From: an uncultured Lachnospiraceae bacterium
GTDB taxonomy: Bacteria; Bacillota; Clostridia; Lachnospirales; Lachnospiraceae
Direction of reading: 5' to 3'
NCBI GenBank assembly: GCA_902767135.1
Contig: CACXGE010000144.1
Location: 1 to 38,110 of the forward strand
DNA: 38,110 bases
Part shown: positions 1,178-37,854 of the stretch, piece after piece
How the letters are laid out: every line of letters begins with the position of its first letter
Numbering within the stretch: the stretch's first letter is position 1
The notes under the pieces: generated by a model
Told to the model about the DNA's origin: nothing
Database searches by the model: none
Seen by the model: the letters and a program-made list of their open reading frames with translations, nothing else
Position numbers and translations under genes: made by a program

Positions 1178-1474
1178 TTATAGGATTAGTGTTTCTCCTG
1201 TTTCTCTATCCTTCTTGCCCATTACCTCCTCACCAAACACATTGTCATTCATTAATTTAATAATACACAAGAAATCTTCACTCTCATCAATAATTGGTTT
1301 TAAGTCGTTCTTAAAGCGAATTAATTTTGATGGTGACATTTCCCCTCGAAATACAGAATTTTGATAATGGGATAAATACTTTTTACAAACCTTAAATACC
1401 TTTTGCACACGTTTTTCATTTACATCATAAAACACAAATACATAATTATAATTCATCTGCTTTTTATTTGCCAT
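1178..1474 (-). CDS. cas2: CRISPR-associated endonuclease Cas2
   Basis: A 98-residue protein of usual Cas2 length. Cas2 dimers bridge two Cas1 dimers in the complex that inserts new spacers at the leader end. The N-terminal strand ends in FVFYDVNEKR, with the conserved Asp at residue 17, followed by the ferredoxin-like fold region and the KLIRFKNDL segment typical of the family. I chose the ATG at 1474, which overlaps the cas1 stop by one base (TGATG) and has GGGAGGG about 6 nt upstream. An in-frame TTG at 1477 also exists but is less likely. It is the last gene of the cas operon and lies directly before the leader, the normal position for an adaptation gene. Confidence 0.95.
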   Translation of the reverse strand: MANKKQMNYNYVFVFYDVNEKRVQKVFKVCKKYLSHYQNSVFRGEMSPSKLIRFKNDLKPIIDESEDFLCIIKLMNDNVFGEEVMGKKDRETGETLIL

Positions 1475-2472
1475 CAAAACCCTCCCTTTAAACTAAATGG
1501 GGAAAATTCTTTTCCTTCCATAATGTACTTAATTAACTTATAGCAATCCAGCTTCATTACAGTACGATATGTTACTTTTCTTTTCAGGCCCGGATGCATA
1601 TATACAGATTCCAAACGACTTTCAAATGCTTCAATAAAAATCTTTCTTCCTTCTTCATTTAGAAGACAATAATTTACCTTTTTGTCAAAATGCTTTTCCA
1701 ACTGTATCTTCCTATTGTTCACAAGATCAAATATGGTTCGAAAAACAATGACCGGTTTGAATACCTCGCTCATATCAAGACTTAAAGAAAATCTTCCCTC
1801 TGATGGTTCATGTAGAAAACTAATTCTCTGGTCTAAATGGGTCTGATAAATTGCCGAAATCGTTTTTCCATAAAGCAATGTGTTGCCAAAAGAAACCATG
1901 GCATTCATGGGATTGTCCGGTGGTCTTCTGACCCGCTTATTCATTAGAAAATCTTCTGAAAGAAAATACTGAAAACTACTATAAAACCTGGTCCACAAAT
2001 CTCCCTCTACCGCCATGAGGGATTTTATATTATCCATTTTTTCTACTTGCTGATAAAATTCCTTTCGAATCCAGTCTAAGGTTTCTTTTACCTCCTTTTT
2101 GTCATGTTTATAATAATGATATAGCACTTCATAAATATTTTCACCGATGCCTCCAACAATTCTCTTAGCAATATGTAACCTGTTATTTTGAAAAGCTTCC
2201 ACCTGTTTCACTAACAATTTTCCACTAAGATACTTCTCTTTTGGATAAAAGGTTCCACTATATCCCTCATAATAATTAAAAAAATGAACTATCACATTAT
2301 TTTGGGATAAAAAATCTAACAATTTTGTATTAAAGGAAACCTCGTTCAAGCAATAAATTTCCTTGGTGTTTTCAATCGGTATATACACATTTTTCCCGTT
2401 TTTGCGAAAGCAAAGAGAATTATCCTTTCTTGTTAACTCTCCCATTGAAGTAATGTATCTGGTACTTCCCAT
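1474..2472 (-). CDS. cas1: CRISPR-associated endonuclease/integrase Cas1
   Basis: A 332-residue Cas1, full length for type I-B. Cas1 is the metal-dependent integrase that captures protospacers with Cas2. The expected metal ligands are visible: Glu156 in the MAVEGDLW segment, His221 in FLHEP and Asp233 in LSLDMSEVFKP. The N-terminal part (about 1-75) is the beta-rich domain and the rest the helical catalytic domain. The ATG start has GGGGGAAG upstream. It sits between cas4 and cas2, forming the adaptation module together with the Cas4 nuclease that selects PAM-bearing prespacers. No damage is seen. Confidence 0.97.
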   Translation of the reverse strand: MGSTRYITSMGELTRKDNSLCFRKNGKNVYIPIENTKEIYCLNEVSFNTKLLDFLSQNNVIVHFFNYYEGYSGTFYPKEKYLSGKLLVKQVEAFQNNRLHIAKRIVGGIGENIYEVLYHYYKHDKKEVKETLDWIRKEFYQQVEKMDNIKSLMAVEGDLWTRFYSSFQYFLSEDFLMNKRVRRPPDNPMNAMVSFGNTLLYGKTISAIYQTHLDQRISFLHEPSEGRFSLSLDMSEVFKPVIVFRTIFDLVNNRKIQLEKHFDKKVNYCLLNEEGRKIFIEAFESRLESVYMHPGLKRKVTYRTVMKLDCYKLIKYIMEGKEFSPFSLKGGF

Positions 2473-2484
2473 TTTTCTTCCCCC

Positions 2485-2976
2485 TTAAATATAGCAATAT
2501 TCATAATAAGCACATTTTTTGCATTTTGGCTTATTTAAAACTTCTGGTATCTCGTTCTCAGCTAATAACGCTTCTATAGCGTAAATATAGCTTTCCAATT
2601 CCTTCTCCAACTCTTCTGTCAATTCAAAGTATAATATTTTTTTATTTGTTTTCCCTTTTTCAATAAATTCCAGCTTTCCTTTTCTGATAACCCCCTTATC
2701 CTTTAAAATTTTCAAGTACAATAATAATTGCCACTTGGCAGCCTCCACATCAGCATCAGACTTTTTCACTTCCGTTAGGTATTCGCTGCTTAATTTATCC
2801 AAACGGATATTTTCTAATGCAATTTCTGTATTTACCTTTCTATCCCTTTCTTCATGTAATGCCTTTCCTATTTTCACCTGCTCACTATTATCTTCTAGAT
2901 TTAATCGATTTCCATGGAGATAACACTGGCGTTTACAGTGAAAAAAATAATTCATCAATGTTCCATTTACCCTCAT
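2485..2976 (-). CDS. cas4: Cas4 RecB-like exonuclease, adaptation factor
   Basis: A 163-residue Cas4. The family are iron-sulfur RecB-type nucleases that trim prespacers and help choose PAM and orientation. Cysteines are seen near the N-terminus (Cys14 and Cys18 in HCKRQC) and at the C-terminus (Cys152, Cys155, Cys161 in CKKCAYYEYC), which fits a 4Fe-4S cluster. The nuclease core shows EVKKSD and the QLLLYLKIL segment corresponding to the RecB QxxxY motif. The start has GGAGGG 5 nt upstream and lies 9 nt after cas3, so it is cotranscribed. Length and order match standard type I-B loci. Confidence 0.93.
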   Translation of the reverse strand: MRVNGTLMNYFFHCKRQCYLHGNRLNLEDNSEQVKIGKALHEERDRKVNTEIALENIRLDKLSSEYLTEVKKSDADVEAAKWQLLLYLKILKDKGVIRKGKLEFIEKGKTNKKILYFELTEELEKELESYIYAIEALLAENEIPEVLNKPKCKKCAYYEYCYI

Positions 2977-2985
2977 TTTTCCCTC

Positions 2986-5538
2986 CTAAATAAATTCTGT
3001 TAATTGTCCCTCTATCATAGCACGATTTAGTTTTCCATTTTCTATATATTCCTCACCATCCTCAATATAAAACAATTCACCAACCTGCTCTGTGTAAGTA
3101 CAGTCAATCCTTTTCACCTGATATATAAAGTAATTCATTTTCGACGTGACTTCAGAGAGTTTCACCCTCCGTTCAGCATAGTTCATTTCTTTATCATATA
3201 ACAATTCTGTATATGCTCTCCACACCTCTCTTCCATCCAAGACAGTTCCATTCTGGTCAGTTATTTCCCTGGCTAAAAATAAAGACAGGTTCCATTTCTC
3301 CTCGTCTATCAACTGCATTTGCTTTTTTATTTTGGGAAAGTCCAAATATTTCACACTGTTTGGAAAAAAATCCTTCTCCAGGCTTTCCCAAAAATTTTTC
3401 TTCCATGTTGCCAAAATTTTCTCATAATAAATTGGAAAATCCTTCTCCTTGAGACAAGTCCAAATATCCTCTTGTAGAATACTGCACTCATAATTTGCTC
3501 TAATATCCTCTCCATAAATTTGCTTTGGCTTATCCATCTGAAAAAAATATACAATTCCCCTTGGCTCCTTACGATAGGAGCGATTGATTCTGCCCATGAA
3601 CTGTTCTTCGCTATCCATTTTGGCAATTGCCTTATATCCAATATCCATATCAATGTCCACACCCGCTTCAATTACCTGTGTGGCAACCAAAATTATCCCC
3701 TTAGCATTTTCACTTTTTATCTGGGTAATCATCTGCTTTCGCTCCAGCACGCTATCATCGCCAGTCATGCAAAGCACTGTTTCCTGTAGTTCTTCCTCCA
3801 ACAGTCTGTGGTAAAACTCTTCTGCACTTTTCTTTCTGATAAATTCAATCAGAATCCTTTTGCCCTGTCCACTCTGTTTTTTTACATGCCCTAATAGAAT
3901 TTCCATGGTCATCTGTCCATCTAATAATCCTCTATCCAATACCACTCTGTCTTTAAAACAGGGATGGTGAAAATATTTCTCCCGATGTTGTATTAAATAT
4001 GCCGTCAACGCTGTTGTATCCTTTAGTACATCTAAATCAGGCATGGTGGCAGACATAATCATAATTTTCATATGTAAAAATTCTGCTAACTCTGTCAGAA
4101 ACGTAATGATTTCTCCCCAGATTTTATTTTTGTAGCTCTGAATTTCATCTAATACCAAAATACTCCCTGCCAACTGATGAAAACCAAAAGCAGCTTCCTT
4201 ACTGTCACCAAAAATAGTATCAAACAAGCTCACATGGGTGGTTAAAATCATGGGGTAATTTAAAAACTGTCTGTTTAACAAAGCCCGTTCATAATAGGAC
4301 CCCCGCTCATTTTTTTCTTCCTCCCCTCTTTCTTCCTTTACCATTTTTATTGGTGTAATAGAATTCACCACTGCAATACTTTCCATAATCTTTGCATTAT
4401 TTCCAAAAGTTCGTTCCATAATTTCCTGATTTTGCTCAATCAAAGTATTAAAAGGATAAATGTAATATATCTTCTTTAAACTCTTATCTTTTTTTGCCAT
4501 CTGAAAGCTTAAATTCATGGATAAATTAGACTTTCCACTTCCTGTGGGTGCCTCCACATAAAAAATAGTTTTTTCTAAATTGTCCAGTAAATTTCTTTCT
4601 GCATCTAAGAAAAGTTCTTTTCTCAAAATATTGATATCCTGTGTTTTTTTTCGCTTTTCTGTTGTCATAGGATATAGGATATTCTCATATTCTCGTATTT
4701 CCTGATTAATTTTAGTTTTTTCAAAAGCTTCATTAAGTTCCCAGATATCTTCCAGTTCACCAAAATCTTTTGTTTTGACTCCGGAAACATATTCTGAAGT
4801 GGCATAATAATCCGCTGCAACCAAAAGAGAGTACAGTAACTTTACATAAAAATATAACCAGATATCCTGCTTTTTTGTTCGCTGAATATCCTTGAAACAG
4901 CGTCCCATATACGCAAAACAATCATCATCAAAATCAAATTCTCTGTTTCCTATTTTTCCATATTCTTTCTGAAGTGTTTTTATTGCCTTACCTATTTCCT
5001 CTTTCTGCTCCCCGCTGGTAAAATCACTGACAGAAACCAACCCACTATGATGTCTGGAAATAATGTAAGCATTATACAAGATGAGAAGAAGAAGTCTTTG
5101 TGCCTCCTCCAGCTTTTCTAGTTCTTCTGCCTTTTTCAAATAATACTCCATATACATTACAGCAGATAAACAGGAATGTTTCGAGCCAATAGAATCATAG
5201 CTTTCATTCTCCGAAACCTCTTTTCTTCCCAATGCAATTTTCTGAAACATGGGATTTATCTTTCCCATATCGTGAAAGGTCACTACATTCTTCCACATAG
5301 AATCAAAGAGTTCTTTTGCCTGGTTAGAAGCGTTTCCCAAGTAAACCTGATAAAAGCAGTCCATCTTCTTTTCTATCTGCTTACTTTTACATATGTTCTC
5401 AAAATACGTCTGACATAGTTTTGTATGCCCTTCTAATGTTTCGTACTGGACTTTTTGATTTTCATCCTTTTTGGTATGAGCATAATATAAATCCGGCTCC
5501 CTTATGATTTCTTTTATATCTACAAATTTTTCTCCCAT
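2986..5538 (-). CDS. cas3: Cas3 HD nuclease-helicase
   Basis: An 850-residue Cas3 with both expected domains. Cas3 is recruited by target-bound Cascade and unwinds and degrades DNA. The N-terminal HD nuclease shows His38, the HD pair at 89-90 in TFHDMGK, His121 and the HH pair at 163-164 in SRHHSG. The superfamily 2 helicase follows: Walker A EAPTGSGKS (329-337), DEIQ box (464-467), SAT (496-498), QVIEAGVDID (621-630) and motif VI QFMGRINR (646-653). All catalytic motifs look intact. The ATG at 5538 has GAGG 8 nt upstream. A 64-nt gap with a hairpin separates it from cas5, unlike the near-zero gaps elsewhere in the operon, so it may be made in lower amounts. Confidence 0.97.
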   Translation of the reverse strand: MGEKFVDIKEIIREPDLYYAHTKKDENQKVQYETLEGHTKLCQTYFENICKSKQIEKKMDCFYQVYLGNASNQAKELFDSMWKNVVTFHDMGKINPMFQKIALGRKEVSENESYDSIGSKHSCLSAVMYMEYYLKKAEELEKLEEAQRLLLLILYNAYIISRHHSGLVSVSDFTSGEQKEEIGKAIKTLQKEYGKIGNREFDFDDDCFAYMGRCFKDIQRTKKQDIWLYFYVKLLYSLLVAADYYATSEYVSGVKTKDFGELEDIWELNEAFEKTKINQEIREYENILYPMTTEKRKKTQDINILRKELFLDAERNLLDNLEKTIFYVEAPTGSGKSNLSMNLSFQMAKKDKSLKKIYYIYPFNTLIEQNQEIMERTFGNNAKIMESIAVVNSITPIKMVKEERGEEEKNERGSYYERALLNRQFLNYPMILTTHVSLFDTIFGDSKEAAFGFHQLAGSILVLDEIQSYKNKIWGEIITFLTELAEFLHMKIMIMSATMPDLDVLKDTTALTAYLIQHREKYFHHPCFKDRVVLDRGLLDGQMTMEILLGHVKKQSGQGKRILIEFIRKKSAEEFYHRLLEEELQETVLCMTGDDSVLERKQMITQIKSENAKGIILVATQVIEAGVDIDMDIGYKAIAKMDSEEQFMGRINRSYRKEPRGIVYFFQMDKPKQIYGEDIRANYECSILQEDIWTCLKEKDFPIYYEKILATWKKNFWESLEKDFFPNSVKYLDFPKIKKQMQLIDEEKWNLSLFLAREITDQNGTVLDGREVWRAYTELLYDKEMNYAERRVKLSEVTSKMNYFIYQVKRIDCTYTEQVGELFYIEDGEEYIENGKLNRAMIEGQLTEFI

Positions 5539-5602: not shown

Positions 5603-6358
5603 CTAGTAGAACATTCTTAATTTTTCTCCTACCCGATAAACCTCCTGCTGCTCCCACTTTGTACCTGCATCTGTGTAAACAAATGTTTCTAATACATAGT
5701 TATTTGTCCATTCATCCATACTATGTGGAAGATTTTCCTGATATTTATAGGTCATCCCCGTCTTTCCCCGCAGACTTTGTCTCAATACAATTTCAGCATT
5801 TTGTTTTATAAACAGACTGTCTATTCTGCCTTCTCCACTTTTTTCTTCTGTCACTTCTTTTATCTGTGCATCTAAAATATCCGCAAAGTGATCATTTTTC
5901 CCCAGATAAGGAAGATAAACGCATTTATGGTTCAAGATTGCTTCTTTCAGATTTTCTGCTTCTTCACAATCAAGTAACACACAAATATCCCAGGAAGGTT
6001 CTTCCAACCACTGTTCTTTTACAATCAGATTTCCACCTTGCTCCTTAGAAGCATACCCTACAGAATTATTAAACTGCTGAATTTTCTTTTCGATAAACCC
6101 ACGTTTTGCATTTGGCCGGATAGATACTTTTAGCTGTGACAGCTTTTCATAAAATTCCGGATATCCTTTTTCCATTCCCTTTTTACTTTCACTGCCATTA
6201 TACTGCTGTGTGTATCCTCCATACCCCAAAATAGCGCCAAAAATTCCAAGCAATGCCACTTTATGAAGATTTCCATAGGTAAAATAATAATAGGAATTTA
6301 CCTCCGGTTTTTTGAAAAATGCAGTTCTTCCACATAGTGTAAAGCACAATGCTTTCAT
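5603..6358 (-). CDS. cas5: Cas5, Cascade subunit (type I-B)
   Basis: A 251-residue Cas5. In type I complexes Cas5 caps the 5' handle of the crRNA and contacts the large subunit Cas8. The N-terminus has the family RAMP signature: MKALCFTLCGRTAFFKKPEV, then YFTYGNLHKVALLGIFGAILG, which matches type I-B Cas5 proteins. The start lies 3 nt after the cas7 stop, so the two are translated together. The downstream gap to cas3 holds the hairpin at 5561-5590. No truncation is apparent. Confidence 0.92.
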   Translation of the reverse strand: MKALCFTLCGRTAFFKKPEVNSYYYFTYGNLHKVALLGIFGAILGYGGYTQQYNGSESKKGMEKGYPEFYEKLSQLKVSIRPNAKRGFIEKKIQQFNNSVGYASKEQGGNLIVKEQWLEEPSWDICVLLDCEEAENLKEAILNHKCVYLPYLGKNDHFADILDAQIKEVTEEKSGEGRIDSLFIKQNAEIVLRQSLRGKTGMTYKYQENLPHSMDEWTNNYVLETFVYTDAGTKWEQQEVYRVGEKLRMFY

Positions 6359-6361
6359 AGG

Positions 6362-7303
6362 CTACACCTCTTTTTGTGTTACAATATGGAAGGTTTTTGC
6401 TCCTTCTATATCTTGTTCTAATTCTGTAGTGTCTGGATTGTAGTATATTTCCACAGATAATATCTGACTTTTCAACTCATTTAACAATTTACCACAAGAA
6501 ACGGAAATCACATTTTTATCCTCACCCTTTTGGAAAGTAATATAACTGGTCAAATTGGGAAGGTAAGTATCCGGTGTTGTCTCTACAAATAATCCAAATT
6601 CATTTTCGCATCCCTCTTTTGCATTAGTGGCATAAGAAGTTGCGCATACCAAAGAAGTACGTTTAAAGTTCTGGTAATCTTCTTCTGTATATCCGTCTGT
6701 CACTCCAAGGGCAACTAATTCTTTATATGCCATTGGGTTAATCGCAAATGGATAAAAGTAATGAGCTTCGTCACTGACAATTTTACTTCCAAGGGTAGAG
6801 TTCTTTGCTTCTCCATCTGCATCCGAATCTTTGGTGCCATCACGGAATGGAGAAAGGATCTGCTGCACCTGTGCTTCTGTTTCTATATATTCGTTGAAAC
6901 CTTGTCCGATTTGAACTGCACCTGTAATTGCAATATTATTTCCCTGCTCTGCATAAGTTGCACCAAAGTTTTTTACATCTACAGCTTTCATTAAATTTGT
7001 TAGTACCTTTTTAGAATCTTTCCCTTCCCCTTTTTCCTGCTTTCCAAACAAAACTTCATAGCGTTCTGACAAAGAATTTGGCACCAGGCTAATTTCACCT
7101 TTTTTTTCCGTAAAACGCATAGATTTAATGTACAATACTTTTTTCCCTTCATTTTCCCACATTTTTTTCATAGGATACTTTAGTGCCTTATCACTTCCAA
7201 AGGTTCTGCCATCAGAAATTGTTTTTGGATATCCTGAAAAATCCGCATTCCAATTTGCCATAATAGATGCTATTCCAATTACCCCATATACTCGTTTATT
7301 CAT
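6362..7303 (-). CDS. cas7: Cas7, crRNA-binding backbone subunit of Cascade (type I-B)
   Basis: A 313-residue Cas7 RAMP protein, the subunit that polymerizes along the crRNA spacer. The N-terminus (VYGVIGIASIMANWNADFSG) and the acidic-Gly-rich middle fit the Csh2/DevR-type Cas7 group; I cannot decide between these branches by eye. The ATG overlaps the end of cas8b by 8 bp and has GGAGGAGAAG upstream, inside cas8b, which suggests translational coupling. Gene order cas8b-cas7-cas5 is the standard I-B Cascade order. Confidence 0.9.
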   Translation of the reverse strand: MNKRVYGVIGIASIMANWNADFSGYPKTISDGRTFGSDKALKYPMKKMWENEGKKVLYIKSMRFTEKKGEISLVPNSLSERYEVLFGKQEKGEGKDSKKVLTNLMKAVDVKNFGATYAEQGNNIAITGAVQIGQGFNEYIETEAQVQQILSPFRDGTKDSDADGEAKNSTLGSKIVSDEAHYFYPFAINPMAYKELVALGVTDGYTEEDYQNFKRTSLVCATSYATNAKEGCENEFGLFVETTPDTYLPNLTSYITFQKGEDKNVISVSCGKLLNELKSQILSVEIYYNPDTTELEQDIEGAKTFHIVTQKEV

Positions 7304-9062
7304 CTTTCTTCTCCTCCTTCTTTTCTAACACAAGATTATTATCTACAAATCCCATACAAATCATATCCTGTTGTACTTTTCCTTCTGCTTCATACCCCAG
7401 AATCAATTTATATAACATATCTGCTTTCTTTGCTCCCAATACGATATCATAATTATATTTTTTATAATATTGTAGAAGCTTTTCCTTAATCGCTTTACTA
7501 TTTTTTGCATTTAGGATGGGATTAATTAAGGACTCATTTTTCTTGGCACCTCTATTTAAAAAGATATAATATCTTGCCAACTGTCCCACTGCATAATAAT
7601 ATTCTGTATCATTTTCTAACCCTCTAGATTCCTCTGATACCATTTTTTCTTTTAAATTTTCCCGCAACCTTACTGAAAAATCTGCCATATACTCTCCTCC
7701 TTTAGAAAAATATCGCAATAATGACAGTCTTAAATTCATCTGTCTTACTGCCTTGCCACTATGTCCGTTTAAAATCGAAGATTTTATCATCTCCAGAAAT
7801 GCTTCTTCTACTACTTTTTTCACACCGTCTTTGTGATTTAACCGAAGCCATGAAAACAATTTCATTCTGTACAATAATAGATTTCTCTTTAATCCTTCTT
7901 CTATAATACTAAGCTTCTCTGGTTCTGTAAAATAATTGTTTCTCAGCATCTTAGAAAAGAAAATCTCGTCTATTAACCGTTCTAACTCCGAAAATTTATC
8001 GTAAGTATGATATTCCATCTCATACTCCGGATGTTTTTCATTGGGAATCTTCATATAGTCTATAAACTCCAGTTCTGTTTCCAATTTATCCTCATAAAAT
8101 GGAACTACATCCTGATAATGAATTTCCGCTTCGTTCTTTCCCTTTTGTAGTCTTAAAAAAAAACCACAGACACTTCCTGGTGGGAATCCCTTATTTCTAT
8201 CATCATTTCGACATGGCAGGAATTCACTTCTTTCCAAATCCACATAAACATTATATTTTCCCGCACTGACAAAGTTCATAAAGTAATCAAAAAGCTGCTT
8301 TTGCATCATAACCTGATTTTCATCTAACAAATATGGAGTAGGAACCTTTCTGGTCTTATTCGCTAGAAAAGGCTTTTTACTATTCATATTCAAATTGTTA
8401 TCTGGTAACCCCAAAACCTTATCTTCAATTTTAATGTTATAATCATTACTATTATAAATATTGGGAATGAAATATCGTTTTCCCTCTTTTTCGTATTCCC
8501 AGTCTTCTGCTTCAAAGAAAATTTTTAAATAATCTTTTTTTTCTAAATCTACGGAGATCAGCTGGTTCATGGAAAAGATATGCTCCTTAATCCATGCTTT
8601 ATTTTTCTTCAATATATCCTGATTCACAGGTCCAATCCTTTCCTCTAGTGCCTGATATAATTCTAAGGTTTTACCTTTTCCATACTTCTTCACAGGATCT
8701 TCTAAGATGTCATAATACTGATCAATGACTTCTTCTGTTAATTTTCCATTTACAATACTTTCTTTCTTTACCCAAAAAGAATAGTAATTGTTGGAATGTA
8801 TAATTTTTTTGGAATCTAGCGGCTTATTCATAGAAATCAATTTACTCTGGTAATCATAAAAGCAGAGCTCTTTGTAATATTCAGAACTTTTGTCTATGGT
8901 TCCGGTTTTCTTATCCATTTTAATTTCTACAGGCTCACCTTTTATCTGGTAATTTTTATCCACCAGTACATAGGTGCCATCTGCCGGAATATACTCTCTT
9001 AAAATTACATTTTCATCTTTTTCCAACACCTTTTGAAATACTTGAAGACACTCTGTTATCAT
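7296..9062 (-). CDS. cas8b: Cas8b, large subunit of type I-B Cascade
   Basis: A 588-residue protein in the Cas8b position between cas6 and cas7. Cas8b recognises the PAM and starts R-loop formation. The sequence is poorly conserved, as is normal for the family, so the call depends mainly on size, position and subtype. I chose ATG 9062 (MITECLQVFQ), which has AGGGGGTGA about 4 nt upstream and begins 11 nt after the cas6 stop. The open frame continues upstream to 9242, but that part overlaps cas6 in another frame and is low-complexity Gly-rich sequence, so it is not coding. A run of eight A in the plus strand near 8157 is the only mild sequence-error risk. Confidence 0.87.
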   Translation of the reverse strand: MITECLQVFQKVLEKDENVILREYIPADGTYVLVDKNYQIKGEPVEIKMDKKTGTIDKSSEYYKELCFYDYQSKLISMNKPLDSKKIIHSNNYYSFWVKKESIVNGKLTEEVIDQYYDILEDPVKKYGKGKTLELYQALEERIGPVNQDILKKNKAWIKEHIFSMNQLISVDLEKKDYLKIFFEAEDWEYEKEGKRYFIPNIYNSNDYNIKIEDKVLGLPDNNLNMNSKKPFLANKTRKVPTPYLLDENQVMMQKQLFDYFMNFVSAGKYNVYVDLERSEFLPCRNDDRNKGFPPGSVCGFFLRLQKGKNEAEIHYQDVVPFYEDKLETELEFIDYMKIPNEKHPEYEMEYHTYDKFSELERLIDEIFFSKMLRNNYFTEPEKLSIIEEGLKRNLLLYRMKLFSWLRLNHKDGVKKVVEEAFLEMIKSSILNGHSGKAVRQMNLRLSLLRYFSKGGEYMADFSVRLRENLKEKMVSEESRGLENDTEYYYAVGQLARYYIFLNRGAKKNESLINPILNAKNSKAIKEKLLQYYKKYNYDIVLGAKKADMLYKLILGYEAEGKVQQDMICMGFVDNNLVLEKKEEKKDE

Positions 9063-9073
9063 CCTTTCACCCC

Positions 9074-9772
9074 CTATAGCCAACGATAATTCACAAATCC
9101 AAATCCCCGGGAATTCATCTCCAGTACCCCTGTTCCCAATGCCAGATAAGCCAGTTTTTGAGCCATTGCATTTTCCGCCACATGCATTCGCACCTTGTCC
9201 CCCAGAAGTCTGACTCCTTTGTATTCCGATGCCACCGGACATTTGCTTAAAAATTCTACTCCTGTAAATAGTTCAAAATCTTCTTCAAGTTTTTCACCAC
9301 AGAATTCATTCCATTTTTTGATCAAATTCCCCTTCATTCTTTCCTCAAACTGAACCACTGTCATTTCATCTTTCCAATAACCAGAATCACATTTCAAAAT
9401 AGCTGGTGTCAAGGTGTATATTACATCAATATGTTTCCTTGGCAAAATCCTTACCTGAGCAGTTAGGCCTTTCAGTTTTCGGGTGTGAGTGTGAACTACA
9501 TACTCTGAAAAATGTTTTGCAAGGCTGACATCCAGGGTGCGAAGAGTGAGTGTGTAAATTTTATCTTTCTTATACACCTTGTCTTTTTCCAAGGGATAAA
9601 GACTATCATAACAGTAAAACTTATACTTATTCTCCCTGTGCAGTGCTGCAAACTGGCTGGTACCTGCCAGTCCACTATCAATATACGTAGTCAGCTCTCT
9701 CCGTATTTCATTTGCAGAAATATCTGCCATGACATATATCTTGATTTTTGTTTCATATACAGAAACTTCCAT
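9074..9772 (-). CDS. cas6: Cas6 pre-crRNA endoribonuclease
   Basis: A 232-residue Cas6, which cuts repeat RNA at the base of the hairpin to leave the 8-nt handle. The C-terminal glycine-rich signature is clear (LGTGVLEMNSRGFGFVNYRW), and a tandem ferredoxin fold fits the length. Translation should start at 9772 (MEVSVYETK), 7 nt after AAGGAGG; an adjacent in-frame ATG at 9775 is possible. The frame runs upstream to 9856 but that part lies before the ribosome site and covers the likely transcript leader. It is the first gene of the cas operon. Besides array repeats it should be able to process the degenerate repeats at 9932-10019, whose hairpins are preserved. Confidence 0.93.
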   Translation of the reverse strand: MEVSVYETKIKIYVMADISANEIRRELTTYIDSGLAGTSQFAALHRENKYKFYCYDSLYPLEKDKVYKKDKIYTLTLRTLDVSLAKHFSEYVVHTHTRKLKGLTAQVRILPRKHIDVIYTLTPAILKCDSGYWKDEMTVVQFEERMKGNLIKKWNEFCGEKLEEDFELFTGVEFLSKCPVASEYKGVRLLGDKVRMHVAENAMAQKLAYLALGTGVLEMNSRGFGFVNYRWL

Positions 9773-9858
9773 CATCTCACCTCCTTTTTCACAATGGTTA
9801 TTCGGTAACACAATAAATAATAGCACTTGAAATCTCTTTGTATTGAACCGATACATTG

Positions 9859-9887
9859 ATTATACATTATGTTTTTGAAAAACGCAA
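9859..9887 (-). promoter_or_regulatory. Promoter of the cas operon
   Basis: On the minus strand TTGCGT (9887-9882), a 17-nt spacer and a perfect TATAAT (9864-9859) precede cas6. Transcription would start near 9852, leaving a leader of about 80 nt. The -35 element lies inside the region matched by the crRNA-like RNA encoded just upstream. Confidence 0.8.
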
Positions 9888-9909
9888 TACTTATTCTTAA
9901 TTAGTTTGA
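9879..9909 (-). promoter_or_regulatory. Predicted target of the crRNA-like RNA in the cas promoter
   Basis: Minus strand 9909-9907 reads TCA, a PAM used by clostridial type I-B systems. The next 15 bases (from 9906 down) match the pseudo-spacer at positions 1-5, 7-11 and 13-15 and differ only at 6 and 12. Type I Cascade flips out every sixth guide base, so such mismatches cost little. A 28-nt target would end at 9879 and cover the -35 box (9882-9887). Little match exists beyond position 15, which favours binding without full-length pairing. Confidence 0.75.
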
Positions 9910-9931
9910 TTTTTTATATTGCTTATAAAAA

Positions 9932-10026
9932 ATTCTTTTACACCACGTGTTCCTATTTATCATTCTTTGAATAATATACTTAAATAGTTATTCAAATACG
10001 CTAAGCGTTCCCATTTATCGTAATCT
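9932..10026 (-). ncRNA. creR: crRNA-like regulatory RNA (CreR-type), degenerate repeat-spacer-repeat
   Basis: Two degenerate CRISPR repeats lie at 9990-10019 (19/30 identical to the array repeat) and 9932-9961 (22/30), flanking a 28-nt pseudo-spacer (9962-9989). In the crRNA sense both begin GATAAAT(A/G)GGA as in the array. The hairpin is kept although its bases change: array ACAT-GGG-ATGT, first copy ACGC-TTA-GCGT, second copy ACAC-GTG-GTGT. These are compensatory changes, so Cas6 recognition has been under selection. The tail after the stem is 8 nt in all three (ATTGAAAC, ATTTGAAT, AAAAGAAT). A promoter sits just upstream, and a run of six T follows the second copy. The arrangement corresponds to the CreR family, crRNA-like RNAs that guide the Cas complex to repress cas promoters. 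The exact transcript ends are inferred. Confidence 0.85.
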
Positions 10027-10212
10027 TTTGCAATTATACAAGATTCCTTCCAAAATCTCAAGACATAATTTATGGTAGTATTCATCATAAAAACTAAAAG
10101 AATTCCTTTGTTCTATATCATCATACACATTGACAAACTCAACCTCATTGCCTGTAACGTGATAACAAAATCTGACCCAGTCACGGATGAATACTACCGC
10201 TTTATTTCCCAC
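10015..10212 (-). CDS. Possible small protein of unknown function upstream of the crRNA-like RNA
   Basis: A 65-residue frame opening with GTG at 10212 (GNKAVVFIRDWV) and ending KRLR at a stop inside the first degenerate repeat. The sequence has a plausible protein composition, aromatic and acidic, but I do not recognise it. There is no convincing ribosome site, no ATG, and the last 16 codons overlap the -35/-10 elements of the crRNA-like RNA. It begins 24 nt after the histidine kinase stop and could be read from that transcript. Alternatives: a remnant of a longer gene, or a partner gene of the regulatory RNA. Coding status is uncertain. Confidence 0.35.
   Translation of the reverse strand: MGNKAVVFIRDWVRFCYHVTGNEVEFVNVYDDIEQRNSFSFYDEYYHKLCLEILEGILYNCKRLR
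10033..10061 (-). promoter_or_regulatory. Promoter of the crRNA-like RNA
   Basis: Minus strand TTGAGA (10061-10056), a 17-nt spacer and a perfect TATAAT (10038-10033). Initiation about 7 nt downstream would start the RNA near 10026, some 6 nt before the first degenerate repeat. This is the tight spacing expected for a dedicated crRNA-like transcript. Confidence 0.75.
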
Positions 10213-10236
10213 ATTAAAAATATGTTGGTTATTTTA

Positions 10237-11658
10237 CTATAATATTCGTTCTTTCCTTCCATAGATTCCCATTCTCACCACAAAACAGTTTTTTCCCTGA
10301 TATACCTCATAGGTAAGAGTCCCTCGTTGTTTCTCCATAATAACTTTGGATATAGAAAGACCCAGTCCAGTGCCACCATTGGTTTTTCTTGCCTTATCTC
10401 CACGGACAAAGGGATCAAAAATGATGTTTTGTAAATCCTCTGAGATAATTTCACCGTCATCCCAAACACGTAGCTCCACCTGTTTTTCCAACACAGATAG
10501 TTTGACACCCACCTGCTCTCCTGTCTGGTTATATTTTCCTGCATTGCTTAATAGGTTTCCTATCACCCTAGCCATGGCTTCCTCATCTGCCTGGATATAA
10601 TATGGTGTTTCCGGAATATCAATGTCTAACGAAAGCCCTGCATTTAAAATATCCTCATAAAACTCTGCACAAATCTGCCGTGTCAGCTCACAGATATCCA
10701 CCTGTTTTAACTGTAAATGAAAATCCGGGTTTTCCATTTTTAACATCAAAAACATATTTTCTGCAAGGCTGCATACCCTGTCTGCCTTTTTATCAATGGT
10801 TTGATAATAGGACATTTTTTTTGCTTCCGGAACCAAATCACTTTCCAGAGCATTGGCATACCCTTTGATAGTGGAAAGAGGTGTTTTTATATCATGGGAA
10901 AGCTCCAATAACAGTTGGGATTTTTTTTGCTCCATTTCTTCTTTTTCCTGTCTGCTTTCCTCTAACTGCTTCATCATCAAATTAAAGGTATCACGGATTT
11001 CCACAAATTCCCACTCTGCCACAAAATCAAGATAAACTCCCTCTTCCCCTGCCTTTACCTTTTCCATTCCTTTCACCAGTTGATTCAATGGCTTTTTTAT
11101 CTTTTTACTCAGATAATGACTAAGGATAATACAATTAGAGATAAATAGAAGTATAAATACTATAGACGACAAACGGGTTGCTGTGTGCCCACCTTGTGTC
11201 TGGTTTCCCAGCATCACTGTTACTCCTATCTGCACCAGTTTTCTCTCATAAATGCATAAAAAATAAGTTTTTCTTTTCTCCAGATACTGCATGACACCAA
11301 TATAAGAATTTTCTTCTGTTGCACTGACATTCATTAAAGAAGAAAGTTCTTCCTGGGTATAACTTTGCTGTTCTCTTTGCCTTTCCCCATACACATTTAT
11401 TACCTGAAAGTTTTGATCCAGTTCTTCCACCCAGCCACCCATCTTTTCTATCTGTTCCATATTTAAAATATTACCATCCTCATCCACAAAGGAATTGGGT
11501 GGCATGGTCTGGTCGCTGCCCCCGCTGATATATATCATGGACACAATCAGACATACAACAAAGGACACAAGAACCATCACGGAAAATACAATATAGCTTA
11601 CCACCAGCTTACTGAAAATACTTTTTTTTAATCTAAAGTTTCTCTTGATCCTTTTCAA
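10237..11658 (-). CDS. Sensor histidine kinase (VanS/EnvZ-type)
   Basis: A 473-residue membrane kinase. Transmembrane segments lie at about 16-44 and 163-183 with an extracellular sensor loop of about 120 residues between them, then a HAMP-like region, the H box with phospho-acceptor His255 (LSHDIKTPLS), the N box (GNLLSNAGKYNQ) and GGTGLGLSI near the end. It should phosphorylate the response regulator encoded just upstream. The first in-frame start is TTG 11658, overlapping the regulator gene by 26 bp; no ATG precedes the first membrane segment, so the exact start is uncertain. Last gene of the ABC-metallopeptidase-regulator operon. Confidence 0.9.
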   Translation of the reverse strand: MKRIKRNFRLKKSIFSKLVVSYIVFSVMVLVSFVVCLIVSMIYISGGSDQTMPPNSFVDEDGNILNMEQIEKMGGWVEELDQNFQVINVYGERQREQQSYTQEELSSLMNVSATEENSYIGVMQYLEKRKTYFLCIYERKLVQIGVTVMLGNQTQGGHTATRLSSIVFILLFISNCIILSHYLSKKIKKPLNQLVKGMEKVKAGEEGVYLDFVAEWEFVEIRDTFNLMMKQLEESRQEKEEMEQKKSQLLLELSHDIKTPLSTIKGYANALESDLVPEAKKMSYYQTIDKKADRVCSLAENMFLMLKMENPDFHLQLKQVDICELTRQICAEFYEDILNAGLSLDIDIPETPYYIQADEEAMARVIGNLLSNAGKYNQTGEQVGVKLSVLEKQVELRVWDDGEIISEDLQNIIFDPFVRGDKARKTNGGTGLGLSISKVIMEKQRGTLTYEVYQGKNCFVVRMGIYGRKERIL

Positions 11659-15351: not shown

Positions 15352-15391
15352 AAGAATCCCTCCTAAAATAATTATTGAACAAAGAATTTAA

Positions 15392-15445
15392 TTACTCGAT
15401 AATTGTAGCAACACGTCCTGAACCTACAGTACGTCCACCTTCACG
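15392..15445 (-). other. Leftmost tuf 3'-end copy (attachment site)
   Basis: These 54 bp encode [17 protein letters not shown] and stop, the last 17 residues of EF-Tu, with synonymous differences from the tuf gene at 37855 (for example CGT instead of AGA for one Arg). No tuf coding sequence continues to the right. It marks the outer junction of island A and probably holds the original chromosomal tuf tail or the tail of the first island's donor. Confidence 0.9.
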
Positions 15446-15549
15446 CTATATGAATAGCGTTTTTCGATGTATTTTCTATGCTTTTTATGGCTGAAAACTG
15501 AATATTTTCGTTGGTTTTAGCTGTCTTATTTTTATTTGCATGATTTCTT

Positions 15550-17837: not shown

Positions 17838-18563
17838 TTATAATACAGGATTTTCCTTAAAATAGATATTCAAATTTGTGTGTCTTTGTAATGAATGCAA
17901 TTCCTCTCGTATGTATCTCCACGATGCTGGAAAACTTTCCGGAACTCCATTAACAACTTCCATATCAAGAAACTTTATGAATAATGTTTCTTTTCCCATG
18001 AATTGTTCATAAAACGCTTGCGAGTATTGTGATTTTAGTTCATCGCTCAGATTAAGTTGGTTATATAACGCATGATCTAAATTACTGGATAAATAGTAAC
18101 ATCTGTACGGTATTCCTTTAATGTTATCACATGTAAGAAGATAATCCATAATTTCTCGTTTATGCTTATTTCTGTCTATTACTTTTTGCGTATTTTTACA
18201 AGAAATATTTTCCGTTGAATATACTATTTCCGTACTATCTCCTTGTATAATATTTGAATCGTCAATATATGTGCCATCTGTATCAAAAATTTGTACTATT
18301 TGCCAAATATCACTAAGTTTTAGTTTCTTATCCTTCCTATATTTATCGACAAATTTATAAATCTCCTCTTCAACATTACCTTTGTCAATATTTTCATCTG
18401 AAGTAATATCACCATGGGTAAACTCAAAATGGATATCATTGTATCTATATATCTTTTTAAATATATTTTCTAAAGCCCTTTTATCTGTGGCTCCTTCAAC
18501 AATAAAAATAACTGCTTTATCCATACTTAAAGCATCATCTCCTTTGAACACTACTCCATCCAC
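17838..18563 (-). CDS. TOPRIM-like putative nuclease, partner of the island A ATPase
   Basis: A 241-residue protein. Near the N-terminus FIVEGATDKRAL has the conserved Glu of a TOPRIM fold, and about 70 residues later QIFDTDGTY supplies an Asp-x-Asp pair, so the metal-binding motifs are plausible. The rest is not recognised. GTG 18563 overlaps the ATPase stop; ATG 18524, directly before the domain, is a possible alternative. ATPase plus TOPRIM pairs are a known defence architecture (for example PARIS AriA/AriB, or OLD-type nucleases in one chain), where the ATPase senses phage and releases or activates the effector. I cannot assign it to a named system. A strong terminator follows. Confidence 0.6.
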   Translation of the reverse strand: MDGVVFKGDDALSMDKAVIFIVEGATDKRALENIFKKIYRYNDIHFEFTHGDITSDENIDKGNVEEEIYKFVDKYRKDKKLKLSDIWQIVQIFDTDGTYIDDSNIIQGDSTEIVYSTENISCKNTQKVIDRNKHKREIMDYLLTCDNIKGIPYRCYYLSSNLDHALYNQLNLSDELKSQYSQAFYEQFMGKETLFIKFLDMEVVNGVPESFPASWRYIREELHSLQRHTNLNIYFKENPVL

Positions 18564-20032
18564 TAACTATTTTTTAATAGTTCCATGAACTCTGCTGAAA
18601 ATGGAATTTGAACATTAGTTTCTTCCGTATTACCTGCTTTTCTAAACGCATAGCCCATATCTTGAAGGTCTGTATCATCATAAAGTTTCTCTTTTTGACC
18701 TCCTAAAACGATAGTCCTTATATAAAAATCTCTACGATTATGCGTCTTTTCTATTCCTTTAAGAGAAATATATCTATTATCTGGATTAATAGTTGAACAA
18801 ACAATATTCTTCTTATCCAACTTTTCCATTACACGTAAATTATGTGAAGTAAATATTAACTGCCCTTTAGCCTCTTCTGCCAAAACACCTATTAATTCGC
18901 CTAACAGATATTCAAAGATTCCAGCATCTAGCTCATCAACAACAAGACATGCTCCCGGATTATTATATAAAGAAATTAAATAATTTAACAAGGAAATAAT
19001 TCGTTTAATACCTTCAGATTCGTATTTCGTTAAGAATCTCTTTCCATCTCTATTTGAATAGACTTCTACTTGGACAATACTAATTCCGTCTTTATTCTTT
19101 TCCTCGTTTGTTTTTACAAGCTCAATTGACAAATTCGGTATAATAGCCTTTAATGCGATATTGATAGCTGCTACAATTTTCTCAAGCTTATTAAAAATCT
19201 CTTCTGGAAAATCACCACGACCATTAATGAACAATGGAATACATCCTTGCATAACCTCATTTTCTGATTCAGTATGAACATTCACAGGAATAAAAGCATT
19301 TGAATAATTAACACCTAACTGGTTTACTTTTACGACTTGGAATCTCATTCTTGCAAAATCAAATAAAGCCTTTACCACATCCGAAAATGCCATTTCTTCT
19401 TCATTTTGGTTTTCAGCTAGCAATGATTTATTTATTACATCATTAAAATACAAAGATACATTTTTTTGTGCACAAAATACTGCAAGATTTTGTACAGAAT
19501 TAAAGAAACGAATTCTAGATAATGCACTCTCATCTTTCGATACAATACGAGTTGGTGTATTTTCGAGAATAGACTGTGTATCATAATAAGGATTGCAGAA
19601 TGATACATTTCTCTCTTTCTTCCATGAACCGCCTCTTTGCCAATATATTATATTTTCCGAAAAAATTTGAATCTTCTTTTCCTCTTTATATCGTTTTAAC
19701 AATAACTCATATCTAGCTTTATACTTTTTCTCCGCACATTCGATATAGAATACTGTAGAGATTTTCATCATCTTATTATCATTAAACATACCCTCATATT
19801 CATCATAAGAAATAGTATTTCCACTCATAATATGTTGCAGTATATCAAAAGCTTCAATAATAGCTGTTTTACCCGAGCCATTTTGTCCATATATGCCATT
19901 AATATCTGATTCCTTTAATTCTGCTCGGTATTCAGCATTTGAATAATTTACAAATTTAATATCTCCATAATTCACATTTTTGAAATTTTCTAATTCTGTT
20001 TCCACTATTCTAACCAAACTTTTTTCATTCAT
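18563..20032 (-). CDS. AAA/ABC-type ATPase, OLD/AAA_15-like, probable phage defence sensor
   Basis: A protein of 489 residues from ATG 20032 (GGGGTG upstream), or 492 from GTG 20041. The N-terminal ELENFKNVNYG strand and Walker A GIYGQNGSGKTA are typical of SMC/OLD-like ATPases. Late in the sequence come YESEGIKRII (signature), ACLVVDELDAG (Walker B), FTSHN (switch) and a long family-specific tail. The next gene overlaps its stop and encodes a TOPRIM-like protein, so the two probably act as one module. Neighbours are typical island cargo. Similar in type but not obviously in sequence to the ATPase at 29412 in island C. Confidence 0.75.
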   Translation of the reverse strand: MNEKSLVRIVETELENFKNVNYGDIKFVNYSNAEYRAELKESDINGIYGQNGSGKTAIIEAFDILQHIMSGNTISYDEYEGMFNDNKMMKISTVFYIECAEKKYKARYELLLKRYKEEKKIQIFSENIIYWQRGGSWKKERNVSFCNPYYDTQSILENTPTRIVSKDESALSRIRFFNSVQNLAVFCAQKNVSLYFNDVINKSLLAENQNEEEMAFSDVVKALFDFARMRFQVVKVNQLGVNYSNAFIPVNVHTESENEVMQGCIPLFINGRGDFPEEIFNKLEKIVAAINIALKAIIPNLSIELVKTNEEKNKDGISIVQVEVYSNRDGKRFLTKYESEGIKRIISLLNYLISLYNNPGACLVVDELDAGIFEYLLGELIGVLAEEAKGQLIFTSHNLRVMEKLDKKNIVCSTINPDNRYISLKGIEKTHNRRDFYIRTIVLGGQKEKLYDDTDLQDMGYAFRKAGNTEETNVQIPFSAEFMELLKNS

Positions 20033-20041
20033 AGCAGACAC

Positions 20042-20352: not shown

Positions 20353-20387
20353 CATAAAATCTAGCTTTTTAGAGACACTATCAAAGA

Positions 20388-20441
20388 TTACTCAATGATA
20401 GTAGCAACTCTACCAGAACCTACTGTACGTCCACCTTCACG
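20388..20441 (-). other. tuf 3'-end copy between islands A and B
   Basis: 54 bp encoding the same 17 terminal EF-Tu residues and stop, with its own synonymous pattern (ATT for the last Ile, ACT for Thr). Homology to tuf ends abruptly at 20441. It is the attachment site shared by islands A and B. Confidence 0.92.
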
Positions 20442-20546
20442 TTTTATTCATAGGGCAAGTAGCGTATTAAACCATTGTATTTTAGGCGTTTTCATAATCG
20501 TAATAATATGATTTTCGCCATATTATTTATATTTTTTGAGATAAAA

Positions 20547-20565
20547 GGTATCATACGGGTATCAC
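20547..20565. repeat. Paired GGTATCA repeats, left arm of island B
   Basis: GGTATCA at 20547 and GGTATCAC at 20558 lie 106 bp from the tuf tail, the same distance as in island C (26778). Probable arm-type integrase sites. Confidence 0.65.
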
Positions 20566-20590
20566 AAGTAATTTTTAATCCTTAATCAGC

Positions 20591-26457: not shown

Positions 26458-26516
26458 TTTCACCAACTCCTTTATTTATATTTCATTCTGAAATATAAAT
26501 AAAAGAGCGAACAAAA

Positions 26517-26535
26517 GGTATCATTTTGGTATCAC
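26517..26535. repeat. Paired GGTATCA repeats, right arm of island B
   Basis: GGTATCA at 26517 and GGTATCAC at 26528, 11 bp apart, 84 bp from the tuf tail at 26619. The same motif marks the other end of B and both ends of C. Confidence 0.65.
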
Positions 26536-26561
26536 AGGAATATAAATCTATTACATAATAG

Positions 26562-26595: not shown

Positions 26596-26618
26596 TGATA
26601 AATCAGTACTTATAACAA

Positions 26619-26672
26619 TTACTCGATGATTGTAGCAACTCTACCAGAACCTACTGTTCTACCACCTTCTCT
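26619..26672 (-). other. tuf 3'-end copy between islands B and C
   Basis: 54 bp encoding the terminal 17 EF-Tu residues and stop, again with distinct synonymous codons (AGA GAA GGT GGT AGA at its start). Similarity to tuf ends at 26672. It is the attachment site shared by B and C. Confidence 0.93.
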
Positions 26673-26777
26673 ATTTTAGCATTACATATAAAAATGTGAT
26701 AAACATTGATTTTATGCCTTTTCTATAATTATGATATTACATCTTTCATCATATTATTTAAGTTATTTTATAGAAAA

Positions 26778-26796
26778 GGTATCAAAGTGGTATCAC
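26778..26796. repeat. Paired GGTATCA repeats, left arm of island C
   Basis: GGTATCA at 26778 and GGTATCAC at 26789, 106 bp from the tuf tail. The surrounding 100 bp also resemble the left end of island B (shared CATATTATTTA and AAAAGGTATCA segments). Confidence 0.65.
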
Positions 26797-26842
26797 AGAT
26801 ACATGTTGCGTTTAATATAACATATATCGTTTCTCACTTTTA

Positions 26843-28747
26843 CTATTTATCATTTTGATGCTTATCCTTAACTTTCGAAGCTTCTTTTTTTGTAGATACT
26901 CCTGTTATTAATTCTATTTCATCTTTATATGGCATCCTTGGTGCATATAAAGATATATATGCATTGCCAATTGCTCCTTTAAAAAATATCATTTTAGGAT
27001 TTCCTGTACTACCAAAGGATAAAATATGTTTTTTTGAGATACCAGGATATGGATCTATATAATAAATTTCTTCAATACCTAATTGATATGCTTTTTTCGA
27101 ACACAATTCACAAGGACTTGCAGTAGTAAACAATTTTCCTCCTTGTATCTTTGCTCCACCATACTTTGCAATTTGCAAAAAAGCATTTTCCTCAGCATGA
27201 AGTGCTCGCGTATGTACTTGATTCTTTTCGCCTATTAATCCAGTATAGACATCCTTAAAGCAATATGCATAGCACTTACCGGATTTCTTCTTCTTAATAT
27301 TCTCATCTTTAAGCAAATCATCAATATTTCTCATCGTTTCATCAAAAAAATCGTCTTCTAATTCAAACTCGCTAAATGATTCTTGATCCTTATTTCGACA
27401 ATAATCTTCAACACAACGCAAGTTGCATGGAACCTGACCTTTAGGAACATCATTCCATCCTACTGCACGCACTGAGAAATCGTTTCCAGTTACAACCGCG
27501 CCAACTTGTCTTGATAAACAGCCTGAATTATATTTTGCATTAAAAGCTAATTGCATACACCTTTCCAAATGCGTTGGAGCAATTAGGCCTGGTTGCAGTA
27601 TTAAAGCGATATACTTTAAGAGCTGCTCTGTCAGTTCATAGTATTTATGATTCAATACATTAGGATTGTACAAATACACATCTGATATTTCTAAACATGC
27701 AGACACATTTTGATGAAAGAAAACGCTATTATCATCAGGATATTCTATACTATCTAAACTCAGTAATTCTTTTCTGTTTAATCCTAGACGATTCTGTCGA
27801 AAACTATCTTCTGTATTAATTGCAAATGAGTAAAACGCCCTATATCTATCCCTGAAATAATTAATCTCGTGTGAATTTCTTAATGCATCAATACATATTC
27901 GGGTACATTCAAATCCATTGCTAGCAATTTCTTCCTTTCTATTAATTAGCTTTACAACGCAATTTATTCTTTCTGCCAAAGTAATTTCCATTCCAGGTGA
28001 TTCTTCAGACATATCATATTGTCCGGAACTTCTTATATTATTGCCAATAGACTGCATAAAATATGTATATAAATTATAAACTTTTGTTTCTTTGTTATTG
28101 TCATCTTTATCACTTTCTATTTTTTCAACTGTTGTCTCTCTTAAAATAGTACTAAATCTATTTTTGATTTCCACTAAATCAACGGTGAAATACTTAATAA
28201 TATCGTCAAGCTCAGTAGGCACATCTTTATCAAGTGATTTCATAAAATTTACATTCTTATCATTCATTTTTTCTATCCATGTTTTAGCCTTAGAATCAAT
28301 AACATCATTCTCTATTTTCTTTAATTCAAAATCTTCTTCAAGTTTTTCTTTTCTTAAAACCTCAACTATTTTTTTCTTTAGAATTTCTATTTCTTTTATA
28401 TTGATCTCATTTTTAAGAGAATCAATATAATCAAATAGACGTTTATATGTATCTTGCATGATAAAAGAAAAAATAATTGAACTAGCCTCAATTATTACAA
28501 ACGGTTTCTACATATCGCCTTCCTTCATAAATCGATAAATCAAGCTATACTTTCGTTCATCAGAATTGTTATAATCACATGTTTTATAAGACCTCAAATC
28601 CAAATCTTTAATATTCGATTTTGCTAAAATTTTTGACACCGTAGTACATCCAGCGCCAGTCCTTCCTGTTAATCCAATGAGTATAAATTTCTCTCTTTGA
28701 CTATATATACTTTTTACTGATTCAGCTTTATCATTCATAGATTTCAT
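26843..28747 (-). pseudogene. AvcD-like anti-phage cytidine deaminase with kinase-like domain, interrupted by in-frame TAG
   Basis: The gene reads as one frame of about 634 codons broken by a single TAG at 28508-28510. The first part has a P-loop, GLTGRTGAGCTTVSK, as in the nucleotide kinase-like domain of AvcD/dCTP-deaminase defence proteins. After the stop the same frame continues without a gap (KPFVIIEASS, then 538 residues from ATG 28459) through a long helical region to a zinc deaminase domain with HAEENAF and PCELC. These proteins deplete dCTP/dCMP during infection. Translation starts at ATG 28747, in an ATGA overlap with the rloB-like gene and with GGAGG 11 nt upstream. Options: real nonsense mutation, read-through, two separately translated halves, or sequencing error. 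No good ribosome site precedes 28459, which favours a disrupted gene. Confidence 0.8.
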
Positions 28748-29409
28748 TTTTGCTTGTTCCTCCATTTAATACTTTTTTCGTTGATTTCTCCAACAAGCTT
28801 ATAAACTGTAGTACACGGACACATCTGTGATGGTATTTTATACCCATTTTCAATACACTGTGTATGCTTTTGCTCTGCTAACTTTAACGCCTTTTCTTCA
28901 TCGCCTGTTTGAATAAGCTTTTTGTACAGACTTTCGTCTGCTTTATCATATTCAACGCCTGTCTTCGATTTATATATGTCTGCGAAATTACTACAGCACT
29001 TCCATGATTCTGGAATATTAGGCATAGTACCATAATATGCGTGCATCCATATTTCAAAGCATGGATTCGACCAGCCTACATTGATGCCTTTTCGCTCAGC
29101 CTCTGTGATTATTTGATCGAAATTTTTAACTTGATCACGATCAAATACAATCCATGGTATACGATATTGTGGATCGTATGATGCAAATTCAATACACTTC
29201 TCAATCAGATCCGCAGTTTTTGTTTCTACAACTTTAATTACCAATTTTTCCCAAATACTTTCTGGTAATTCCTTATGAAGACCATCAAAATAACAACGCT
29301 CAGTTCCTTCGGTATCTGTAACAACAATATAATAACCCAACTCTGGAACTCTCATATTCTTACGCTGTTCTCTGGTTTTACGCTCTCCTTTTCTATCTTT
29401 CTTTGCCAT
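28744..29409 (-). CDS. RloB/AbiLii-like protein, predicted TOPRIM-type effector
   Basis: A 221-residue RloB-family protein. Basic N-terminus, then VVTDTEGTERCYFDGL with the family Glu, WIVFDRDQVKNFD with the Asp-x-Asp pair, and NPCFEIWMHAYYG, the conserved C-terminal hallmark. The family is the second component (AbiLii) of the lactococcal AbiL abortive infection system and is found with AAA_15 ATPases. The gene starts 2 nt after the ATPase stop with GGGGAGGAA upstream and overlaps the deaminase gene by 4 bp, so all three are coupled. The catalytic residues look intact. Confidence 0.85.
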   Translation of the reverse strand: MAKKDRKGERKTREQRKNMRVPELGYYIVVTDTEGTERCYFDGLHKELPESIWEKLVIKVVETKTADLIEKCIEFASYDPQYRIPWIVFDRDQVKNFDQIITEAERKGINVGWSNPCFEIWMHAYYGTMPNIPESWKCCSNFADIYKSKTGVEYDKADESLYKKLIQTGDEEKALKLAEQKHTQCIENGYKIPSQMCPCTTVYKLVGEINEKSIKWRNKQK

Positions 29410-30674: not shown

Positions 30675-30698
30675 ATCTATATCCTCTCTTTCAATAGT

Positions 30699-30775
30699 AG
30701 TATATGCCATAATCGCAAAAATATCAACACATAGATGTGATTTTTTCTCACTTGAGTGTTGATATTTGTCCAAAA
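30699..30775 (-). promoter_or_regulatory. Promoter of the defence operon inside a 10-bp inverted repeat
   Basis: Minus strand TTGATA (30727-30722), 17-nt spacer, TATACT (30704-30699). A perfect 10-bp inverted repeat, ATATCAACAC at 30721-30730 and its complement at 30766-30775, overlaps the -35 box, with a smaller GTGA/TCAC pair inside. It may bind a repressor or form an RNA hairpin from upstream transcription. Confidence 0.55.
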
Positions 30776-37683: not shown

Positions 37684-37730
37684 TTATATGGTATCACTGA
37701 TACCACATTAATAAAAAAGTTCCGAAAAAA

Positions 37731-37821: not shown

Positions 37822-37854
37822 GTAAATACTAGCTTTGTGAACAATCACTCGAAA

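Follow-up and report, generated by a model that had tools for sequence, protein, structure and literature searches.

Type I-B locus and its contig

The window, that is, the whole stretch of 38,110 nt that was analysed, constitutes one whole contig (C144) of an assembly comprising 2.86 Mb in 171 contigs. Its minus strand carries a type I-B operon in the order cas6-cas8b-cas7-cas5b-cas3-cas4-cas1-cas2, followed by a CRISPR array (Table 1). The Cas8b protein of the window is without a match in Pfam or NCBIfam. Metagenome contigs encode Cas8b proteins 80–93% identical to it; among five genomes of its own genus it was found in one, namely the genome analysed here, and the viral contigs yielded no confirmed case. 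A second array, located on contig C165, has the same repeat as the window array, and the complete spacers of both arrays measure 34–37 nt. Upstream of cas6, a degenerate repeat (psiR1), a pseudo-spacer serving as the putative guide and a further degenerate repeat (psiR2) follow one another on the minus strand at 10019–9932. An Rfam search over 9700–10300 gave no match.

Table 1 Coordinates of the cas locus and of the element upstream of cas6 within the window
Feature	Position	Strand	Remarks
cas6, first operon gene	9074..9775	-	TIGR01877, PF01881; start at 9775
cas8b (588 aa)	7296..9062	-	homologues labelled Csh1 or Cas8b by their sources
cas7	6362..7303	-	PF05107
cas5b	5603..6358	-	TIGR02592
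cas3, cas4, cas1, cas2	1178..5538	-	
CRISPR array, truncated by contig end	1..1002	-	15 complete repeats, sixteenth cut
Predicted small-RNA promoter, TTGAGA-17-TATAAT	10033..10061	-	11/12 consensus bases
psiR1, degenerate repeat; stem ACGC-TTA-GCGT, handle ATTTGAAT	9990..10019	-	19/30 to array repeat
Pseudo-spacer (guide), 28 nt	9962..9989	-	
psiR2, degenerate repeat; stem ACAC-GTG-GTGT, handle lost	9932..9961	-	22/30 to array repeat
TCA, predicted PAM	9907..9909	-	
Guide target, 28 nt; paired part 9906-9892	9879..9906	-	13/13 outside positions 6 and 12
Predicted cas promoter, TTGCGT (9887-9882), 17 nt, TATAAT (9864-9859)	9859..9887	-	between psiR2 and cas6

Elsewhere in the window, four segments resemble the 3' end of an EF-Tu gene (15391–15457, 20387–20453, 26618–26684 and 37854–37920), all of them ending in REGGRTVGSGRVATIIE followed by a stop codon and spaced 5.0, 6.2 and 11.2 kb apart. 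The copy at 37854 runs on into a longer reading frame, and the remaining copies point to insertion having occurred repeatedly at the 3' end of tuf. An EF-Tu domain search of the genome returned 10 places, none of them on the window contig. A phage-type integrase is encoded at 35657–36766, and between the tuf copies (18563–20041, 26843–28459, 28744–29409 and 29412–30773) there are genes matching defence models, comprising AbiLi-like ATPases, an AbiLii-like partner and a protein with a dCMP-deaminase domain (dCTPase model). In addition, a 24-nt repeat of the form AAAAGGTATCA-(4–5 nt)-GTATCACA occurs at 20543–20566, 26513–26536, 26774–26797 and 37727–37750, near three of the tuf copies, and might perhaps provide binding sites for an integrase or excisionase.

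Degenerate repeats and the guide match at the predicted cas promoter

The two degenerate repeats agree with each other at 22/30 positions and have diverged from the array repeat in different parts: over the first 22 nt psiR2 retains 19/22 and psiR1 14/22, over the last 8 nt psiR1 retains 5/8 and psiR2 3/8, the latter being a small difference. The psiR1 handle is identical to that of the L045–L050 array repeats among the relatives described below and differs from the handle of the window array. A 4-bp stem with a 3-nt loop can form before the handle in the array repeat (ACAT/ATGT) as well as in psiR1 (ACGC/GCGT) and psiR2 (ACAC/GTGT), with predicted folding energies of 0, −3.1 and −1.6 kcal/mol, respectively. 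Only psiR2 stands out from its own shuffles in folding (z −2.08); psiR1 folds no better than shuffled sequence, 47 of 200 shuffles being as good. We rejected an ordinary CRISPR mini-array, which would need near-identical repeats, not 22/30 agreement, and a spacer of array length (34–37 nt), not a 28-nt guide.

Judged by consensus scanning, both promoter assignments are weak. As the shuffled region averages 3.2 promoter-like sites, the call of a small-RNA promoter is not evidence by itself, and the putative −35 box of the cas promoter, TTGCGT, has 3/6 consensus bases, for which reason this promoter is absent from the stricter consensus scan. The consensus scan found no terminator-like site between psiR2 and the cas promoter.

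Re-reading of the sequence confirmed the match on which the original prediction was built: guide positions 1–5, 7–11 and 13–15 equal minus-strand bases 9906–9892, the differences falling at positions 6 and 12, and TCA is present directly before the match at 9909–9907. Past position 15 the guide equals the target only at positions 20 and 28 (15/28 overall), in line with the proposed absence of pairing beyond this point, and the same fading recurs in relatives. The 28-nt footprint (9906–9879) likewise spans the predicted −35 box, as had been claimed. The first ORF past the target is cas6, and no toxin-like ORF was found between target and cas6 in the window.

The match between guide and cas promoter is real and far beyond chance. 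When the 156 nt upstream of cas6 were dinucleotide-shuffled 20,000 times, none of the shuffles contained the 13/13 match, with or without TCA, and seven agreed at all ten seed positions. Searching the 2.86-Mb assembly with TCAAACTANTTAAG, which specifies 13 bases, returned one perfect site, at the predicted cas promoter, and two further sites with one mismatch; the reversed control pattern gave six sites with at most one mismatch.

The claim that TCA acts as a PAM in clostridial I-B systems is backed by other systems of this type (PMC4860712, PMC10328091). TTTCA was functional in C. pasteurianum and TCA in the editing of C. autoethanogenum; TCA also functioned in C. difficile, where CCN performed better. 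The genome's own spacers do not add to this support. Stretches taken from six spacers and searched against viral contigs gave one hit, which ends after the 20 bases searched and amounts to 25/36 overall with TGA before it; it looks like a chance match. At 31/34 positions, spacer 14 of the window array agrees with the DNA polymerase gene of Salmonella phage astrithr, ACC standing before the match; spacer 4 agrees at 28/36 with an Acinetobacter phage, with GCC before the match. Since neither phage host fits, no PAM was derived from these two sites, neither of which shows TCA. The spacer 14 match may reflect an origin in a related small phage. Array stretches of the related loci L054 and L047 had no match, and the window array matched eight of 299 family genomes, its own included, with long matches of 66–77% identity, the kind that arrays sharing related repeats should give.

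Guide and promoter co-vary in related loci

Loci of relatives were gathered via Cas8b homologues in genome collections. From the 98 loci examined, the window included, four without cas6 nearby and six with too little upstream sequence were removed, leaving 88 in which cas6 precedes cas8b and is itself preceded by at least 150 bp, and removal of identical upstream sequences reduced these to 72. Some of the 72 are still akin (for example L068 with L070 and L074 with L076), and a few are fragments. In a strict test, a psiR1 candidate had to lie outside arrays and to show at least 18/30 identity to a known repeat, a 4-bp stem and 6/8 agreement in the handle, no PAM being required; its guide was scored as matching if the upstream region of its own locus carried, on the same strand, all positions 1–15 except 6 and 12.

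Non-array psiR1-like candidates were present upstream of cas6 in 44 of the 72 loci, and 18 of these 44 guides matched their own upstream region. The bases on the PAM side, on which no condition had been placed, were TCA in 16 matches (window included), TCG in one (L050) and GTA in one (L100). The L100 match was set aside, as its six GTA hits are array repeats, which leaves 17/44 true pairs. Guides swapped between loci matched in 6 of 3,124 trials, one of these beside TCA; the opposite-strand control gave 2/44 loci, and freeing another residue class modulo 6 gave four or five matching loci versus 18. Within the 17 strict pairs, position 6 is mismatched in eight and position 12 in 11. As some of the relatives are akin to each other, the 17 strict pairs do not represent 17 independent events. 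Together, these data show that guide and promoter co-vary across relatives, the check which the original prediction had proposed for itself (17/44 strict pairs versus 1/3,124 swapped trials with TCA).

A relaxed search, in which TCA was fixed and hits were inspected manually for a repeat preceding the guide, yielded 29 TCA pairs, to which L050 adds its TCG pair (~30 loci of 72). TCA was the selection criterion of this list, so that the selection-free figure remains 16 TCA and one TCG among 17; L063, L067 and L088 are weak members. TCA hits in L038, L065, L075, L098, L099, L100, L122, L128 and L129 were set aside as array repeats or for having no repeat before the guide. At positions outside the selection rule, mismatches were frequent across the 29 pairs (position 6, 17/29; position 12, 18/29; position 18, 15/29). 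The other positions among 1–11 showed 4/290, positions 13–15 3/87 and positions 16–17 15/58, figures that arise partly through selection, and positions 25–36 showed 233/324. Guide pairing fades after about position 15–21; across the 29 pairs it is conserved to about position 17–21. The pseudo-spacer is at most 33 nt long in 19 of the 21 loci with a second repeat scoring at least 20 (the weak L088 among the 21), and a recognisable second repeat is absent in, for example, L073, L074 and L076. Four stem pairs in the expected register occur in 19 of the 29 listed psiR1 and not in the other 10; because the strict scan demanded a 4-bp stem, stem pairing in relatives is unusable as independent proof.

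The match is thus present in 17/44 loci in the strict and ~30/72 in the relaxed search, and no guide–promoter pair was found in 42/72 loci. These include L045, which at 54% Cas8b identity is the nearest Cas8b relative with upstream sequence. L090 has two pseudo-repeats and no guide–promoter match.

Where pairs exist, the placement of the target follows that of the window in most cases. Of 20 pairs examined, 15 have the −35 box of their best predicted promoter 19–34 nt past the target start, where the footprint of Cascade would overlap or border it; the exceptions are L058, L062, L063, L089 and L113. The target lies right at the cas6 start in L064 and L097, and the RNA is found downstream of the target in L089 and, more weakly, in L063 and L088. 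In L058, L108 and L113 the target stands just before an ORF of 66–86 aa matching HTH_11 or Rrf2, and this small HTH ORF sits between the RNA and cas6. The target of L079 precedes an ORF without a Pfam match, and in L050 target and cas6 are separated by an ORF of about 150 aa. In L071, about 680–570 bp upstream of cas6, a guide with TCA is aimed at a promoter leading into a YoeB-like ORF (PF06769). This ORF stops early relative to the family model, and the element resembles CreA more than CreR.

Predicted autorepression and comparison with known systems

We interpret the element as very probably a mini-CRISPR of the CreR kind, whose RNA is predicted from sequence to repress the cas operon through Cascade. 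This reading, already put forward in the original prediction, ranked best among those considered, and the co-variation of guide and promoter speaks in its favour. A small RNA would be transcribed from 10061–10033 and cut by Cas6 after the ACGC/GCGT and ACAC/GTGT stems, and would then load into Cascade on its shorter guide. The resulting partial R-loop, extending from 9906 to about 9892, would bar RNA polymerase from the −35 box, and the stop in pairing would prevent cutting by Cas3. Repression would be relieved once ordinary crRNAs or anti-CRISPR proteins draw Cascade away.

The RNA anatomy and the seed rule are the same as those of CreA in the excerpted text of PMC8501985, and the L071 guide of like kind is aimed at a YoeB-like ORF, both of which speak for the element being a CreA antitoxin RNA, with Cascade silencing a toxin gene behind the target promoter and the effector being addictive (CreTA). 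In the window, however, the target promoter leads into cas6 via a short leader, with the ORF starting at 9856 in frame with cas6, and a separate mini-ORF carrying rare codons in tandem was not found between target and cas6, a point that applies to ORF toxins and not to an ORF-less toxin RNA; we regard a CreTA module at this site as very unlikely. Decay of a two-repeat array that had taken a spacer from its own promoter and is now functionless would be another route to two degenerate repeats and a guide whose 3' half no longer matches its target. Yet positions 1–5, 7–11 and 13–15 are kept in 17/44 loci with differing sequences, while positions 6 and 12 and the far end drift, and as decay would not spare the very positions read by Cascade, we consider this origin highly improbable. 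Coincidence in AT-rich DNA might be invoked as well, given that the region is AT-rich and that the seed match alone did appear in a few shuffles (7/20,000). The full pattern appeared in none, and the swapped-guide control refutes a chance match (1/3,124 trials with TCA versus 16/44 for own guides), so that the probability left to it is negligible.

If cas autorepression of the CreR type holds, the amount of free Cascade would set cas expression, which would then increase upon a flood of crRNAs or in the presence of an anti-CRISPR protein. The relatives constitute a natural mutation experiment, in which ~30 pairs show kept (1–5, 7–11, 13–15) versus drifting (6, 12, 18) positions, and the pairing limit seen in them opens the rule for binding without cutting to direct testing. 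More tentatively, and with somewhat less than even confidence, we propose a family of guide-RNA genes that is kept before cas across a wide clostridial I-B clade by co-evolution of guide and promoter, and that may have been rewired in some lineages to the start of a small HTH gene of winged-helix-like type located ahead of cas6 (L058, L108 and L113, giving a two-step circuit) or to a YoeB-type toxin (L071), with CreR and CreA as interchangeable outputs.

In type II-A, the guide of Cas9 autorepression is the long-form tracrRNA (tracr-L). The review PMC13131331 mentions that this effector with its RNA guide represses its own genes; effector and guide RNA differ from those of the window, for which own-gene repression is predicted in common. 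Closer in architecture is CreA of type I-B CreTA, described for Haloarcula hispanica and Halobacterium hubeiense in the available parts of PMC8501985 and PMC9458426. According to the former, CreA needs seed positions 1–5 and 7–11, leaves 6 and 12 free and represses its target promoter together with Cascade; in most two-repeat creA genes the 5' handle is better preserved in psiR1 and the first 22 nt in psiR2. The window element shares the psiR1-psiS-psiR2 layout, the seed with its free positions, a (here predicted) PAM beside the target and the split between conserved handle and first 22 nt, and is predicted to bind without cutting as CreA does. It differs in its predicted PAM (TCA, against TTC for CreA) and in its target, as CreA represses a toxin RNA gene whereas the window target promoter leads into cas6.

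The closest counterpart is CreR, the cas-regulating RNA (Liu et al. 2023, Cell Host Microbe, doi 10.1016/j.chom.2023.08.005), which in the review passages of PMC12737573 and PMC13131331 is reported from types I-B, I-E and V-A as repressing the cas promoter together with the effector, relief being brought about by crRNA load and anti-CRISPR proteins. Like CreR, the window would encode a crRNA-like RNA adjoining the cas genes with a partial match to the (here predicted) cas promoter, formed by two degenerate repeats around a pseudo-spacer beside the cas operon and directed at cas, not at a toxin; unlike the published CreR, it has another host and another sequence. In the literature searched, which lies mostly outside subscription journals, no titles on CreR in clostridia were found. 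As CreR itself is already published, the principle at the window is not new, and the HTH-gene and YoeB-like variants in relatives are fresher leads than the CreR-type element predicted in the window.
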